A stretch of 64,000 nucleotides of DNA, taken from positions 1,488,001 through 1,552,000 of the forward strand of contig NZ_CP081497.1 of assembly GCF_019774615.1 (NCBI RefSeq). Direction: 5' to 3'. Source of the DNA: Streptomyces sp. BHT-5-2. Lineage in GTDB: Bacteria > Actinomycetota > Actinomycetes > Streptomycetales > Streptomycetaceae. Position 1 is the first letter of the stretch. Every line of letters starts with the position of its first letter. Shown piece by piece: positions 43,607 to 59,314 of the stretch. Below the pieces are notes generated by a model. The model worked only from the letters and a program-made list of their open reading frames with translations, was not told the DNA's origin and did no database searches. A program made the translations under genes and the position numbers.

Positions 43607-43712
43607 TCCCAGGGCGGGACCCTGGAGGCATGCGGTTGACGATCTCCGCGGCGGCCGCGCGGGCGTCTCCGGAGGTGGACGGGGATTGCGGGTTCGCGGC
43701 GCGCATGCCGCG

Positions 43713-43808
43713 ATGCCGCGCCTGAAGGGTCAACTCCCGCTGCACCGGCGCCTGTTCCTGGACCTCGTGCGACTCGCCTCCGCGGCATGTCGTCCGGCGG
43801 GCCGCTGA
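43713..43808 (+). CDS. Orphan Cys-containing leader peptide
   Basis: 31 aa, too short for normal gene callers. The core RLFLDLVRLASAACR matches the Streptomyces 'putative leader peptide' pattern R-L/V-H/F-x-D-L-x-R-x-x-S/G-x-x-C, as does the one at 56292-56378. Such peptides are commonly found upstream of sulfate, sulfonate, cysteine or related sulfur genes. No strong ribosome site precedes the ATG. No intact + strand gene follows it before the convergent gene at 44400-45527, so it looks orphaned. Confidence 0.6.
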   Translation: MPRLKGQLPLHRRLFLDLVRLASAACRPAGR

Positions 43809-43839
43809 CCCTGCCCCGTTCGCCCCTTTCACTCGCCTT

Positions 43840-55194: not shown

Positions 55195-55572
55195 CTAGCG
55201 CTCCACCGGCAGCCCCGCCGCGCGCCACGCCTGGAAGCCGCCGATCAGGTCGGTCGCGTGGTGCAGGCCCAGCTGGTGCAGGGAGACCGCCGCCAGACTG
55301 GAGGCATAGCCCTCGTTGCAGATCACCACGACCGGCAGGGCGTGGTGGGTCGCCTCGGGGGCGCGGTGCTCACCCGTCGGATCGAGCCGCCACTCCAGCT
55401 CGTTGCGCTCGACGACCAGCGCCCCGGGGATGGTGCCGTCGCGCTCGCGCAGCAGCGCATAGCGGATGTCCACCAGCAAGCCGCCGGCCTTCTGGAGCGC
55501 CGCGGCCTCCGCCGGACCCACCCGGCTCAGCCCGCGCCGGGCCCGTGCCAGCAGGTCGTCGATCGCGCTCAT
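55195..55572 (-). CDS. Rhodanese-domain sulfurtransferase
   Basis: 125 aa single-domain rhodanese. The active-site loop is VVICNEGYASSLAA, with the catalytic cysteine near residue 84. The N-terminal motif LLVDIRYALLRERDGTIPGA corresponds to the CH2-A region. It is downstream of cysteine dioxygenase on the same strand, 79 nt apart. Moving sulfane sulfur or thiosulfate released in cysteine breakdown is a plausible role. Confidence 0.9.
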   Translation of the reverse strand: MSAIDDLLARARRGLSRVGPAEAAALQKAGGLLVDIRYALLRERDGTIPGALVVERNELEWRLDPTGEHRAPEATHHALPVVVICNEGYASSLAAVSLHQLGLHHATDLIGGFQAWRAAGLPVER

Positions 55573-55651: not shown

Positions 55652-56191
55652 TCACCACTCCTCCGGCCGCTCGACCTCTTCCAGCCGCAGCACCGCCCCG
55701 TTGCGGCTGTACCGCCGCATCAGCGGCAGCGGCGGATAGTAGGCGTGCACCGACACCGCGTGGGTGTCGGGGGAGAGGTTGAGCACCTGATGGACGTGGT
55801 GCGGGCCGAACGCCCGCCCCCGTCCACCGCTCAGCCGGCGCTCCCGGTCGACGCCGTCGGCGAGCTCCAGCGTGCGCCACCCCTCGGTGGGGAGCGCGGC
55901 GGCCAGCGACTGCTCGGTCAGCTCCCCGGCGGCCGCCGCGAAGGCGCCGCGCGAACCGCCGTGGTCGTGCCAGCCGGTGCCGCTGCCGGGCGGCCAGCCG
56001 ATCAGCCACGCCTCGCTGCCGCCCGGCCCGTCGAGCCGGATCCAGGTCCGGCCCTCCGGATCGAGCGGCAGGGAGGCGACCAGCGTCCGGTCGGCGGCGG
56101 TACGGCGGACGAAGTCGAGGAGTTCGGCGGCGCCGGGGCCGCCGTCATGGGCGCGGGCACGCGGCCGCGCAGGGGTGTGTACATCGGGCAC
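55652..56191 (-). CDS. Cysteine dioxygenase
   Basis: Oxidises L-cysteine to cysteine sulfinate with iron and O2. 179 aa, cupin fold. Iron ligands are visible as HDH in GTGWHDHGGSRGAF (about residue 90) and the third His in FGPHHVHQVLN. The GTG start at 56191 follows AGGA 8 nt upstream. A longer frame to 56323 would overlap the leader peptide. It is preceded by a Cys-rich leader peptide and followed by a rhodanese, which makes a small cysteine-breakdown unit. Confidence 0.92.
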   Translation of the reverse strand: MPDVHTPARPRARAHDGGPGAAELLDFVRRTAADRTLVASLPLDPEGRTWIRLDGPGGSEAWLIGWPPGSGTGWHDHGGSRGAFAAAAGELTEQSLAAALPTEGWRTLELADGVDRERRLSGGRGRAFGPHHVHQVLNLSPDTHAVSVHAYYPPLPLMRRYSRNGAVLRLEEVERPEEW

Positions 56192-56291
56192 GGGAACCGT
56201 CCTGAGTGATCGTGCGGAGCGCGGCCGCCGGATACCGGGCAACTGCCGCGCAGGGAGGGCCACCGCGGCAGCACGGCCGGGGCGGTGGGGA

Positions 56292-56378
56292 TCAACAGGA
56301 CGGACGACACATGCAGCCCGCATAGCGGAGCAGGTCCAGATGGACCCTCCGCCAGAACCGCGAGCTGTGATCAGTCAC
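56292..56378 (-). CDS. Cys-rich leader peptide of the cysteine dioxygenase operon
   Basis: 28 aa from GTG. Its end, RRVHLDLLRYAGCMCRPSC, fits the Streptomyces leader-peptide pattern and holds three cysteines in the last seven residues. The stop is 100 nt upstream of the cysteine dioxygenase start. Its GTG overlaps the last 8 nt of the FAD monooxygenase gene. Position and content suggest that ribosome speed at Cys codons controls the downstream genes (attenuation). This is inference. Confidence 0.75.
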   Translation of the reverse strand: MTDHSSRFWRRVHLDLLRYAGCMCRPSC

Positions 56379-58206
56379 TCTCGGAGTCAAGCACGGAGTT
56401 TCCCGGAGGGTCAACCGGCCCCGACGCCGGCCCCGAGCCCGGTGCCGGGTCGGCCGCCGGGTCCGCCGCGGCACCGTCGGGCCGCTCCCCGGAGTCCTGG
56501 GCGGCCCCGCCGGGGGACGTCCGCCGGCCGCCCTCCGCGGGCGCCCCGCCGCGCACCGCGTCCGCGCAGGCGGCCAGTTCGTCCGGCCGCACCCCGGACA
56601 GCGCGGCGACCAGATGGCCGTCGGGCCGGACCACCAGCACGGTGTGCGCCGCGGCGCCCGGATACGCCTCGGTGACCAGGACCTCCGCGCGCATCGGCAG
56701 CGCGGCCACCGCCTCCGTCAGACGGGGCATCAGCCCCGCCGACTGCCAGTGCCGCTGGTCCCACACCCCCGTGCCGGGCGCCACCAGCACCACCAGCAGT
56801 CCCCGGTCGAGCCGGTCGCGCAGCCCCACCGACGCACCGTCGGAGGCGGTCACCGGCACGTCCACCACCGGTGCCCCCGGGAGGGTGCCGACCGCCGTCC
56901 CGCCGGGCAGGGCCGCGGGCGCCGCCAGCGGTGTCCGCGGATAGGACGGGGCCGCGCCGAGCGGGCCGCGGCCCAGGTGCCCGTCGGTCAGCAGGGTGCT
57001 GCGCCCGCGCACCGCGCCCGGCAGCACCGTCCGCCAGCGCACCGCGCCGCCGTCCCGGAGCAGCGGAAGCGCCGAGTCGGCGGCCCGCAGCCGGGCGGCG
57101 ACCGCGGCCCGGCGCTCGGCCTGGTAGCTGTCCAGCAGGGTCTCGGAGGCGCCCTGGTGCCAGGCCAGGCCCAGCTTCCAGGCGAGGTTCTCGGCGTCCC
57201 GCAGCCCCTCGTCCAGTCCCTGGGTGCCCAGCGCGCCCAGCAGGTGGGCGGCGTCGCCGGCGAGGAAGGCGCGGCCCCGCCGCCACGTCCGGGCCAGCCG
57301 GTGGTGGACGGTGTGGACGCCGGTGTCGAGGAGTTCGTAGGGGGGGACCAGACCGGTGCGGCCGCGGCCGGCCGGCGCGCCGTCCTCGTCGGCCGACCCG
57401 TCCGCCGCCTCCGTCGCCCAGCCGGCCAGCGAGTCGCGGATCCGGGCCACCAGCGCGTCCGGCGTCACCAGATCGCGCCCCGGGGGGAGCAGCCAGTCCA
57501 ACCGCCAGACCCCGCCGGGCAGCGGGCGGGCGGAGACCTCGCTGACCCGGCCGCCGCCGTGCCGGGCCGGCGAGCGGTGCAGCAGCGCCTCGCCGGGCCA
57601 GGGGAGTTCGGTGCGCAGCGTGGCCACCGCGTGCCGCTCGACGGCGGTGCGGCCGGGGAAGCGGACGTCCAGCAGCTTGCGCACGGTGGACCGCGGGCCG
57701 TCGCAACCGACGAGGTAACTCCCGCGCCACCAGGTGCCGTTGGGGCCGCGGGTCTGGGCACTCACGCCCTTCTCGTCCTGTTCGAGGGCGGCCAGCCGGC
57801 TGCCGGAGACGACCTGGGCGAGCGGTTCGCCGGCCAGCGCGGCGCGCAGCGCGCGGGTCAGCGCGTGCTGGGGCAGGTGCAGCGGGGACGCGTCGGCGGT
57901 CGCACCTTCGGCGCCCTCCGCGCCGTCCGGGGCAGGGGGGGCGAAGGCGACCCGTTCCAGCAGCCGGCGGCGGCGCATGGTGCGCCAGGCCGACCAGCGG
58001 GCGCCGGCGCCAGCCAGGGCGTCCGCGCAGCCGAGCCGGGCGGCGAACGCCGCGGTGTCCGGGCGGAGTACGACGGTGCGGGCGGGCCGGGCCGCCTCCT
58101 CGCCGCCGGTCTCGTCGAGGACGACGACGGGCACGCCGTTCCGGGTCAGGGCGAGGGCGAGGGCGAGACCGACCGGGCCGGCCCCGGCGACGATCACCGG
58201 CTCCAC
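56371..58206 (-). CDS. FAD-dependent aromatic-hydroxylase-type monooxygenase
   Basis: 611 aa from GTG with GGGAG upstream. FAD-binding motifs: VAGAGPVGLALALALTRNG (GxGxxG) at the N-terminus, GCDGPRSTVRKLL near residue 165, and the second FAD motif GRAFLAGDAAHLLGALGTQG near residue 305. The C-terminal thioredoxin-like domain (about 440-590) is typical of PheA/MHPCO-like hydroxylases. The last about 60 residues are Pro/Gly/Asp-rich. The substrate is unknown. The gene overlaps the start of the cysteine dioxygenase leader peptide, so read-through into that unit is possible. Confidence 0.87.
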   Translation of the reverse strand: MEPVIVAGAGPVGLALALALTRNGVPVVVLDETGGEEAARPARTVVLRPDTAAFAARLGCADALAGAGARWSAWRTMRRRRLLERVAFAPPAPDGAEGAEGATADASPLHLPQHALTRALRAALAGEPLAQVVSGSRLAALEQDEKGVSAQTRGPNGTWWRGSYLVGCDGPRSTVRKLLDVRFPGRTAVERHAVATLRTELPWPGEALLHRSPARHGGGRVSEVSARPLPGGVWRLDWLLPPGRDLVTPDALVARIRDSLAGWATEAADGSADEDGAPAGRGRTGLVPPYELLDTGVHTVHHRLARTWRRGRAFLAGDAAHLLGALGTQGLDEGLRDAENLAWKLGLAWHQGASETLLDSYQAERRAAVAARLRAADSALPLLRDGGAVRWRTVLPGAVRGRSTLLTDGHLGRGPLGAAPSYPRTPLAAPAALPGGTAVGTLPGAPVVDVPVTASDGASVGLRDRLDRGLLVVLVAPGTGVWDQRHWQSAGLMPRLTEAVAALPMRAEVLVTEAYPGAAAHTVLVVRPDGHLVAALSGVRPDELAACADAVRGGAPAEGGRRTSPGGAAQDSGERPDGAAADPAADPAPGSGPASGPVDPPGNSVLDSESD

Positions 58207-58320
58207 GGGGCGGCTCCCAGGATCCGGCGGTACGTACGGGACGTGCGGGAACGGGCAGTGGGAGGCCGGTGCGTGATCACACAGCGTATGCAACCCATTG
58301 CGGCCGTCGCCGTCAAGTGA

Positions 58321-58352
58321 CGGAGGCGGTGGCGCCGTTGCCACCGCCTCCG
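58321..58352 (-). terminator. Terminator of the glu operon
   Basis: Perfect 13-bp stem, CGGAGGCGGTGGC / GCCACCGCCTCCG, with a 6-nt loop, 38 nt past the gluD stop on the - strand. Confidence 0.8.
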
Positions 58353-58390
58353 GACGGTCCGGTACCGGCCGCGCGCGGCCGGACCTCCCG

Positions 58391-59314
58391 TCAGTCCTTG
58401 GTGCCGGCCGGTGCCGCGGCGCCCTCCGCGGCGTCCGCGGCGGCCACCGGTTCGGCGGCCGGGGCCACCTCGATGCCGGTCCGGGCCCGGCGCCCGCGCC
58501 GCTCGATCCAGTTGGCCAGGGCGGACAACGCCAGGCACATCGCCACATAGATGCTGCCGATGACGATGATCACCGGGATGTAGGTGTCGTTGCCGTTGAC
58601 GATGATGTTGGTGCTCATCAGGCGGGCGGTGTAGAGGAGTTCCTCGAAGGTGATGATGTAGCCGAGCGAGGTGTCCTTCAGGGTCACCACCAGCTGGCTG
58701 ATGATGGTGGGCAGCATCGCCCGGATCGCCTGCGGGAGCAGCACGGTCGTCATGACCTGCGTCTTGCTCATGCCGAGCGCGTACGCGGCCTCCCGCTGGC
58801 CCTTGGGCACGGCGTTGATGCCGGCACGCAACACCTCCGCCTGCACGGAGCCGTTGTAGACGGTCAGCCCCGCCACCAGCGCCCAGAACTGCGGCTGGCT
58901 GCCGGTCAGGCCCAGGGCGTCGCGGTTGCTGAGCAGGACGACCCACAGCGCGTAGATCGTGATCAGCAGCGGCACCGCGCGGAACAGCTCGATGAAGCCG
59001 GTGGCCAGCCAGCGGATCGGCTGGTGGTCGGAGAGCCGGGCGACCGTCAGCAGCAGACCCAGCGCCAGCGACAGCACCGCCGCCACCGCAAAGACCTGAA
59101 GGGTCGTCAGAACGCCGTCGCGGATGCCGGTGCGCACCCCGGCGTAGTTGAAGATCTCCCAGACCTTCGGGTCCAGTTGGCCCTTGGCGTCCAGCCGCAG
59201 GACGGCGAAGGCGATCAGCCCCAGCACCGCCAGTGCGCCGAGGACGCTGTAGACGCGGTTGCGGGCCCTCGCCTTCGGCCCCGGCACGTCGTAGAGAACG
59301 CTCGCGCCACTCAT
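58391..59314 (-). CDS. gluD: Glutamate ABC transporter permease GluD
   Basis: 307 aa. HisM/GlnP-type permease with a short cytoplasmic N-terminus, five membrane helices or so, and the EAA loop AAYALGMSKTQVMTTVLLPQA (core EAAYALGMSKTQ). The C-terminal tail is Ala/Glu/Pro-rich. The start MSGASVLYD at 59314 is preferred over 59356. Last gene of gluABCD, 91 nt after gluC. Confidence 0.93.
   Translation of the reverse strand: MSGASVLYDVPGPKARARNRVYSVLGALAVLGLIAFAVLRLDAKGQLDPKVWEIFNYAGVRTGIRDGVLTTLQVFAVAAVLSLALGLLLTVARLSDHQPIRWLATGFIELFRAVPLLITIYALWVVLLSNRDALGLTGSQPQFWALVAGLTVYNGSVQAEVLRAGINAVPKGQREAAYALGMSKTQVMTTVLLPQAIRAMLPTIISQLVVTLKDTSLGYIITFEELLYTARLMSTNIIVNGNDTYIPVIIVIGSIYVAMCLALSALANWIERRGRRARTGIEVAPAAEPVAAADAAEGAAAPAGTKD

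Follow-up and report, generated by a model that had tools for sequence, protein, structure and literature searches.

A cysteine-codon leader peptide of Streptomyces predicted to gate translation of cysteine dioxygenase

The cysteine dioxygenase (CDO) gene in the window, the 64,000-nt stretch of Streptomyces sp. BHT-5-2 DNA that was analysed, is preceded by a short open reading frame (ORF) that belongs to a named leader peptide family, accompanies CDO across the genus and ends in codons predicted to pair with the CDO ribosome-binding site (RBS). We propose that this leader is part of a translational attenuator, in which the translated leader would gate CDO translation through pairing with the RBS and would switch it on when cysteine is low. 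The chance that we give to this complete reading, polarity included, is close to even; the RBS gate taken by itself is probable, and the polarity in which a low level of charged Cys-tRNA turns CDO on is, should the gate exist, moderately likely on the basis of modelling. The family carries only the annotation "putative leader peptide", and one of its members can now be assigned a concrete, testable candidate RNA mechanism with named bases. The proposed mechanism would be common to more than a hundred Streptomyces genomes, and for CDO the usual logic of attenuation looks backwards.

A leader ORF of the NF042934 family upstream of CDO genes

The leader ORF of the window comprises 28 codons and has the tail GCMCRPSC*, so three Cys are found among the last seven residues, and its stop is separated from the CDO GTG by 100 nt (Table 1). 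The sequence-only reading had described this Cys-rich ORF with the same length, spacing and coordinates, and all of these are borne out by the window sequence. The closest relatives of the window CDO, among the best 80 of 240 named relatives (all 80 from Streptomyces), are those of Streptomyces sp. MspMP-M5 (97%) and S. noursei (94%). The enzyme is presumably of the Arg type, with cysteine rather than 3-mercaptopropionate as its substrate.

Table 1. Features of the leader-CDO locus in the order of reading (positions in the window)
Feature	Position	Strand	Evidence or remark
FAD monooxygenase ORF (FAD_binding_3), 5' of leader	56371..58548	-	5' end of the ORF as listed probably over-long
TTGACC, promoter -35-like element, within monooxygenase 3' end	56409..56414	-	block kept in 108 aligned upstream regions
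TTGACT, -10-like element	56385..56390	-	18 nt after the -35-like element, 6 nt before GTG
Leader peptide ORF, VTDHSSRFWRRVHLDLLRYAGCMCRPSC*, stop included	56292..56378	-	translation, NF042934 match, genus-wide occurrence
In-frame hairpin region, GGCGGAGGGUCC-AUCU-GGACCUGCUCCGC (codons W-R-R-V-H-L-D-L-L-R-Y)	56321..56354	-	RNAalifold, synonymous comparison, window fold
Cys1 codon TGC, extra Cys of CDO-type leaders	56313..56315	-	Cys in 110/110 (required by the search pattern)
Cys2 codon TGT, conserved Cys of the family	56307..56309	-	TGT in 110/110 and in 78/78 of the named set
Anti-SD CCGTCCTG in the Pro-Ser-Cys codons	56296..56303	-	predicted pairing, locus comparison
Cys3 codon TGT, final sense codon, shares bases with the anti-SD	56295..56297	-	Cys in 94/110
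UGAUC (stop + 2 bases), 5' arm of second helix	56290..56294	-	predicted fold, clade comparison
GAUCA, 3' arm of second helix	56207..56211	-	predicted fold, clade comparison
CAGGACGG, CDO Shine-Dalgarno (SD) element, pairs with the anti-SD	56197..56204	-	exact in 104/109 loci and in 77/78 of the named set
CDO gene (PF05995), GTG start at 56191	55652..56191	-	CDO_I, E 3.6e-43
Rhodanese-domain protein gene (PF00581), 3' of CDO	55195..55572	-	probably in the same operon (predicted)

In a profile search, the leader peptide matched NCBIfam NF042934 (cis_reg_atten, "putative leader peptide") with 33.3 bits, above the cut-off of 27, and it scored 17.9 bits against the NF042933 (Ms5788A) profile, under the cut-off of 45. 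The same search of the genome to which the window belongs gave seven NF042934 matches above the cut-off, with the window leader among them, and 12 weaker matches, several of which are clearly spurious. The genes that follow the seven matches, as judged by eye from their translations, encode CDO, a flavin reductase-like protein, sulfite reductase, a MoaD-like protein together with CysM, a thiosulfate sulfurtransferase, a sulfonate-type ABC permease and a glutathione transferase-like protein; two of the weaker matches have an arylsulfotransferase-like gene and a symporter gene downstream, assigned in the same way, and the Pfam check of downstream genes applies to the genes of the window. The position of the window leader directly 5' of a sulfur-metabolism gene therefore matches that of the members seen. 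Members of the family thus share with the CDO leader both the profile match and downstream genes that are mostly sulfur-related by eye, in agreement with the earlier statement that short peptides of this consensus stand before sulfur genes in Streptomyces. Rfam 15 models gave no match to positions 55900-56700 up to an E value of 1. Elsewhere in the window, a sub-threshold NF042934 match of 20.9 bits is located at 43700-43811 on the plus strand; it ends in ...RRLFLDLVRLASAACRPAGR* and has TGT at the conserved Cys, and no convincing gene follows it on that strand among ORFs of at least 170 aa.

In a draw from the genus, the leader was found in 131 of 150 genomes, exactly the 131 that contain a close CDO orthologue (E < 1e-60). 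The 19 genomes without it comprise ten with no CDO match, eight with weak matches only (1e-16 to 1e-21) and one with a diverged match (1e-44); the sole CDO match of the eight, at E about 1e-16 to 1e-21, appears to represent another CDO type that has diverged within the genus, and genomes limited to this type are without the leader. When coordinates were compared by eye, the leader and CDO were adjacent and on the same strand in 128 of 131 genomes. In two of the non-adjacent cases (G082, G127) they are split by contig ends, and the third, G011 (L133, L224), is the only genome of the draw in which the two lie far apart on one contig. In G011, CDO and a LacI-like regulator are joined, and the adjacent frame contains CLLYTS, which we take to be a reading of a sequencing adapter; the joint together with this adapter-like stretch makes an assembly chimera likely. 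In a class-wide draw, the leader was detected at E 0.001 in 24 of 296 genomes, all within a single genus (Streptomyces) of the 105 represented.

Loci were compared in two sets. The main set started from 113 loci (L020-L049, L051-L133), only one of which failed the leader pattern (L029, a contig without the leader); with two duplicates (L059, L062) also set aside, 110 remained, and 109 were used for counts of leader versus SD, as L133 lacks a CDO start. The named set consists of the best 80 of 240 CDO relatives and may share species with the genus draw and its loci. Among the 110 distinct loci, Trp, Arg1, Val3, His4, Asp6, Arg9, Cys1 and Cys2 are invariant, where the search pattern itself demands Trp, Val/Ala, His/Tyr, Asp/Glu, Arg9 and Cys1, but not Cys2, so the counts for the demanded residues are bounded by the pattern. 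The leader was matched in 78 of 80 loci of the named set; L260 is cut by a contig end, and L259 (Streptomyces sp. SKN60) is the exception, with a CDO orthologue and 1000 nt of upstream sequence that contain neither the leader nor CAGGACGG, both of which may have been lost or replaced together. This one CDO locus without a leader is the only observation that would suit a chance ORF with no regulatory role, a reading that is barely credible in view of the NF042934 match, the occurrence in 131 of 150 genomes, the invariant residues and the codon constraint described below.

The start codon of the leader is RTG, with GTG in 69 and ATG in 39 of 108 loci, and its T and G are invariant. Immediately 5' of it lies a conserved block with the consensus layout TTGACC, 17 nt (18 in the window), TnnACT with TGn before it, and 6-7 nt to the start. 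T is present at -36 in all 108 upstream regions, and, compared column by column, TGnTnnACT is found in 99 of 108, placed one base further upstream than the element of the window. The -10-like element is without the usual A at position 2, and a strict sigma-70 promoter scan of the window found none. Conservation of the TTGACC...TGnTnnACT block directly before the start suggests that the leader probably has its own promoter, and the promoter-like spacing would suit an mRNA that is leaderless or nearly so.

In the window, the leader GTG (from 56378) lies inside the last codons of the monooxygenase gene, whose TGA occupies 56373-56371, and 8 nt are shared. The sequence-only reading was right about this overlap, had taken it to tie the switch to read-through from the monooxygenase and had proposed that its conservation be checked. 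Among 49 loci with enough upstream sequence, an upstream ORF enters the leader in only five (L020, L021, L024, L026, L051). The remaining 44 have a gap of 13-313 nt between the end of their longest upstream ORF and the leader, and in 18 of these the TGA of that ORF is located inside the TTGAC element. Control by read-through was rejected on this count, and the overlap is regarded as incidental.

Codon-level constraint, the in-frame hairpin and the cysteine codons

The leader is constrained at the level of codons. In 50 species with full-length CDO genes, codon identity was 0.83 over 15 leader codons vs 0.64 over 98 conserved CDO columns (p 5e-4). The most variable leader codons are 7, 10 and 16 (Leu7, Tyr10 and Arg16, counted from Trp = 0), which are positioned beyond the stems of a hairpin formed in frame, or at their margins. 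From 101 leaders (93 distinct), RNAalifold derived the hairpin consensus GGCGG-AGGGUCC-AUNU-GGACCU..-UCCGC, in which the variable bases are mostly confined to the loop and bulge. The native hairpins have a mean stability of -19.8 kcal/mol, vs -11.5 kcal/mol for synonymous versions, and rank in the best 5% in 84 of 109 species. For the Arg-Arg-Val-His residues, the codons CGG, AGG, GTC and CAT are used in 106, 101, 110 and 94 of 110 loci, respectively, and both AGG and CAT are uncommon in reference genes (56 of 1694 Arg and 95 of 837 His codons). Synonymous variation is present elsewhere in the leader, for example at Tyr (TAT/TAC, 60/49) and Leu (CTC/CTG, 73/35). Variation of the RTG start, together with the many synonymous changes, points to translation of the leader.

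Other readings of this region were considered. The segment GGTCCATATGGACC could be viewed as a DNA palindrome, i.e. a protein operator; the mostly loop-located variation also fits an RNA hairpin. The Ala11-Gly12 codons (GCG GGC) are equally constrained and are without a partner in the proposed model. A five-segment model, in which GCGGGC (Ala-Gly) pairs with GYCCGU and thereby frees the SD at high cysteine, was dropped, with a mean helix probability of 0.06 at equilibrium. An outer stem, CGACA/UGUCG, was observed in the RNAalifold of the leader and was absent from the fold of the leader and SD block joined by an N linker; it was not relied on. The HxDLxR core, which is common to leaders with quite different downstream genes, would also be expected of an arrest peptide that stalls the ribosome, with the signal, cysteine or some other small molecule, detected in the exit tunnel and not via Cys-tRNA. 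We consider this very unlikely, because in the CDO leader the same codons form an RNA hairpin under strong codon constraint, which places part of the conservation at the RNA level, and because a near-invariant UGU codon points to decoding of Cys.

This codon encodes the conserved Cys after HxDLxR, i.e. Cys2 of the CDO leaders. The conserved Cys is TGT in 30 of 30 sulfite reductase leaders and 29 of 29 cysM leaders, and also in 24 of 24 non-CDO leaders sampled from six genomes, a sample that overlaps the sulfite reductase and cysM types; the exception is L007, a family member from the same genome as the window, which has no Cys at this position. The other regular Cys of cysM leaders is TGC (29 of 29), and in the genes that follow the sulfite reductase and cysM leaders, TGC was counted 85 times and TGT three times. 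Cys1 of the CDO leaders is encoded by TGC in 103 and by TGT in seven of 110 loci (59 vs 19 in the named set), and the 24 non-CDO leaders sampled all lack a Cys at this position, two codons ahead of the conserved Cys. Further TGT codons are found in a few other family leaders. A single tRNA presumably serves both Cys codons, with a wobble pair at UGU, which may be the more sensitive of the two. The position-specific UGU provides a simple rule that may separate real family members from chance ORFs, and it suggests that the signal lies in the decoding of UGU.

Predicted pairing between the end of the leader and the CDO ribosome-binding site

The Pro-Ser-Cys codons at the end of the leader (CCG TCC TGY) hold CCGUCCUG, the exact complement of CAGGACGG, which in the window is separated from the CDO start by 5 nt. 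The tail has the sequence CCGTCCTG in 75 of 110 loci. All eight anti-SD:SD pairs are predicted in 74 of 107 loci and at least seven in 99 of 107; in the named set, the corresponding numbers are 64 and 74 of 77. The sequence-only reading had suggested folding the leader-CDO region, and the predicted structure takes in the CDO RBS: the 199-nt leader fold of the window contains the anti-SD:SD helix and has an energy of -98.5 kcal/mol (z -3.16), with 0 of 200 shuffled sequences as stable. When the tail was recoded synonymously, the SD unpaired probability rose from 0.067 to 0.190, and the native value was lower in 38 of 43 species (50 sampled, seven set aside for other residues). By both prediction and comparison, the leader would pair with the downstream SD, as in a translation attenuator.

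Other results speak against the 8-bp helix. No double compensatory change was found in it, and where the tail has drifted, the SD usually remains CAGGACGG. The duplex of tail and SD alone showed a modest gain over synonymous tails (mean z -1.06, best 5% in six of 109 species), and the anti-SD helix was missing from the RNAalifold structure of the concatenated leader and SD block. A one-sided compensation, AGGTCCTG/CAGGACCT in L073, was not counted because CAGGACCT is also found beside normal tails. In L075, L073, L041, L043 and L125, a second CAGGACC directly precedes CAGGACGG, as if the SD element had been duplicated.

A second helix is predicted to form between the bases around the leader stop and those just upstream of the SD, and it differs between clades on both sides together, with two types that largely correspond to two clades. 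In 109 loci, UUCG/GCGAA is present in 57 and UGAUC/GAUC in 14, six are mixed, and 32 have neither type on one or both sides; in the 77 loci of the named set, UGAUC/GAUC(A) accounts for 52, UUCG/GCGAA for 11, mixed pairs for three and neither type for 11. Native arms pair better than arms swapped between species, by a small gain in the main set (-7.41 vs -7.01 kcal/mol; one of 2000 permutations as good, 109 loci) and likewise in the named set (-6.46 vs -5.97 kcal/mol; 0 of 2000 as good), in permutations that leave shared ancestry in. The helix is also longer than in shuffled sequence (4.64 vs 3.44 bp, 107 loci).

The mean leader:SD pairing probability is 0.76 for the CDO leaders (107 loci), vs 0.12 for both the sulfite reductase leaders (28 loci folded of 30) and the cysM leaders (29 of 30), which, unlike the CDO leader, are without this pairing. 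Anti-SD pairing as a family-wide rule was therefore rejected, and among the three leader types compared, the RBS gate would be a feature of the CDO branch. The sulfite reductase leaders (L164-L193) are near-invariant in their nucleotides as well, and at many of these loci a possible local GUCC-CGAA-GGAC hairpin includes the SD. The cysM/MoaD leaders (L194-L223) often end in AUCUGU..., and the SD region downstream of them, CGACAGGAG, could pair with CUGU, for which folding gives little support.

The sulfite reductase and cysM relatives must use another mode, and the CDO leader might likewise act mainly on transcription, through Rho-dependent polarity or premature termination in the C-rich gap before CDO, with RBS pairing only secondary. 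The gap is indeed rich in C and poor in G (C 0.47, G 0.26), the reported changes of CDO expression are at the mRNA level (PMC7181669, accessible text), and Rho has been proposed for mycobacterial cys leaders (PMC1262725, accessible text). Nevertheless, neither the conserved anti-SD nor the stop-codon helix would be expected from control of this kind, and no intrinsic-terminator-like site is present within the window, which makes control mainly at transcription quite unlikely.

Ribosome position, polarity and relation to known leaders

In the RBS-gate model, the last codons of the leader, its stop and the next bases would pair with the CDO RBS when no ribosome is near the leader end, through 8 bp and a second helix of about 5 bp, and CDO would by default be poorly translated. 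A ribosome with its A site at Cys2 (UGU), Cys3 or the stop would cover the anti-SD and free the CDO site, whereas one waiting at Cys1 (UGC) would leave the site closed. If charged Cys-tRNA were short, waiting at UGU would hold the site open, and expression of CDO, and probably of the rhodanese, would rise. The same polarity is assumed for the related leaders of sulfur-assimilation genes.

When the RNA ahead of the ribosome was folded for 102 species, the mean SD unpaired probability was 0.06 with no ribosome, 0.11 with a ribosome at Cys1 and 0.26-0.27 with one at Cys2, Cys3 or the stop; it was lower at Cys1 than at Cys2 in 89 of 102 species, and with the footprint edge set from +12 to +18, 36-48 of 50 species retained this order. 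These values imply that a ribosome must reach the last codons to open the site, and even with a ribosome at the stop the SD is unpaired with a probability of only about one quarter. When ribosome traffic was modelled stochastically under assumed rates, cover of the anti-SD grew as Cys-tRNA fell and then levelled off in all six parameter sets; with initiation at 0.1 per s, for example, it went from 0.09 to 0.65 and from 0.11 to 0.81. Taken together, the ribosome-position folds and the traffic model favour the low-cysteine-on polarity, but only moderately. The earlier proposal that reading of the leader controls CDO is thus supported in part, by the conserved, sulfur-linked family ORF and the predicted pairing with the CDO RBS, but not in the role that it gave to the overlap, nor in its direction: it had required expression to be favoured when Cys is plentiful, and both the geometry, in which waits at Cys2, Cys3 or the stop free the site, and the traffic model favour the reverse.

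CDO destroys cysteine, so its expression under shortage would be odd, and the opposite polarity of the same RBS gate would suit a catabolic enzyme. In this arrangement, ribosomes would wait mainly at Cys1 during shortage and the site would be closed, and in times of plenty a stream of ribosomes would keep it open and CDO would rise. The conservation of Cys1, at which a stall keeps the SD paired (0.11 vs 0.26 unpaired), speaks against the low-cysteine-on polarity: Cys1 is found in 110 of 110 CDO leaders, as the pattern requires, with a contig without the leader as the sole failing locus, and an extra Cys of this type is absent from the 24 non-CDO leaders from six genomes. In Streptomyces sp. 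SCUT-3, two CDO genes were up 50.2- and 8.3-fold in feather medium compared with LB, media that differ in much besides cysteine (PMC7181669, accessible text), a rise that the opposite polarity would accommodate. However, anti-SD cover in the traffic model goes up as Cys-tRNA falls, since waits at Cys2 and Cys3 open the site, and in S. shaoguanensis the CDO genes were up at 96 h, when sulfate-assimilation genes were also up, variably (PMC12763843, accessible text), which fits a polarity common to both groups of genes. The CDO genes of these two strains may be counterparts of the leader-bearing CDO. On balance, we regard the opposite polarity as possible but unlikely. Similarly doubtful is a mixed design in which Cys1 and Cys2 straddle the edge of the anti-SD cover, so that a wait at the first would close the CDO site and a wait at the second would open it. 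A sulfur-assimilation leader would then have been converted into a cysteine attenuator of an inverted or band-pass type, with a polarity specific to an enzyme that destroys cysteine.

Leaders with Cys codons have been described in Actinobacteria. The CDO leader belongs to a named family and would carry an RNA gate in addition. It is distinguished from its NF042934 relatives by the Cys two codons earlier, the in-frame hairpin, the anti-SD located at its end and a target that degrades cysteine. Canestrari et al. reportedly described in 2020 mycobacterial polycysteine leaderless short ORFs with runs of adjacent Cys codons. The CDO leader resembles these mycobacterial ORFs (Ms5788A, NF042933) as a short, Cys-holding and possibly leaderless ORF before a sulfur gene, and it differs from the Ms5788A type in its score below the NF042933 cut-off, the absence of a run of adjacent Cys (C-M-C-R-P-S-C) and its catabolic target. 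Work of Canestrari et al. on mycobacterial Cys-codon leaders is cited in the accessible text of PMC13236596 and PMC9094748, and in the former, cysteine genes of M. smegmatis are said to be under translation attenuation, and SD occlusion is named as the general mode. Leader ORFs with Cys codons were also described before cys operons of Mycobacterium and P. acnes and before cbs of Bifidobacterium (PMC1262725, accessible text). Like the CDO leader, they have Cys codons near the stop and no terminator hairpin; they differ in their runs of Cys codons, and in the accessible portion of that source no RBS pairing is reported for them and Rho is suggested. With the trp-type transcription attenuator, the CDO leader shares regulatory codons in a leader ORF, but its structure involves the SD, and the window contains no site that resembles an intrinsic terminator.

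A literature search, with subscription journals mostly outside its range, found no paper on NF042934 or cis_reg_atten and, by title or abstract start, none on the CDO leader. The re-annotated S. lividans genome has eight listed leader peptides (PMC8079986, accessible text), and among these none is labelled cysteine-dependent or precedes CDO. One of them, the metL leader before metNIQ, is labelled methionine-dependent and reads ...RCMCRRMCAF (Table 4 of that paper); with its three Cys, it might be a cysteine leader.
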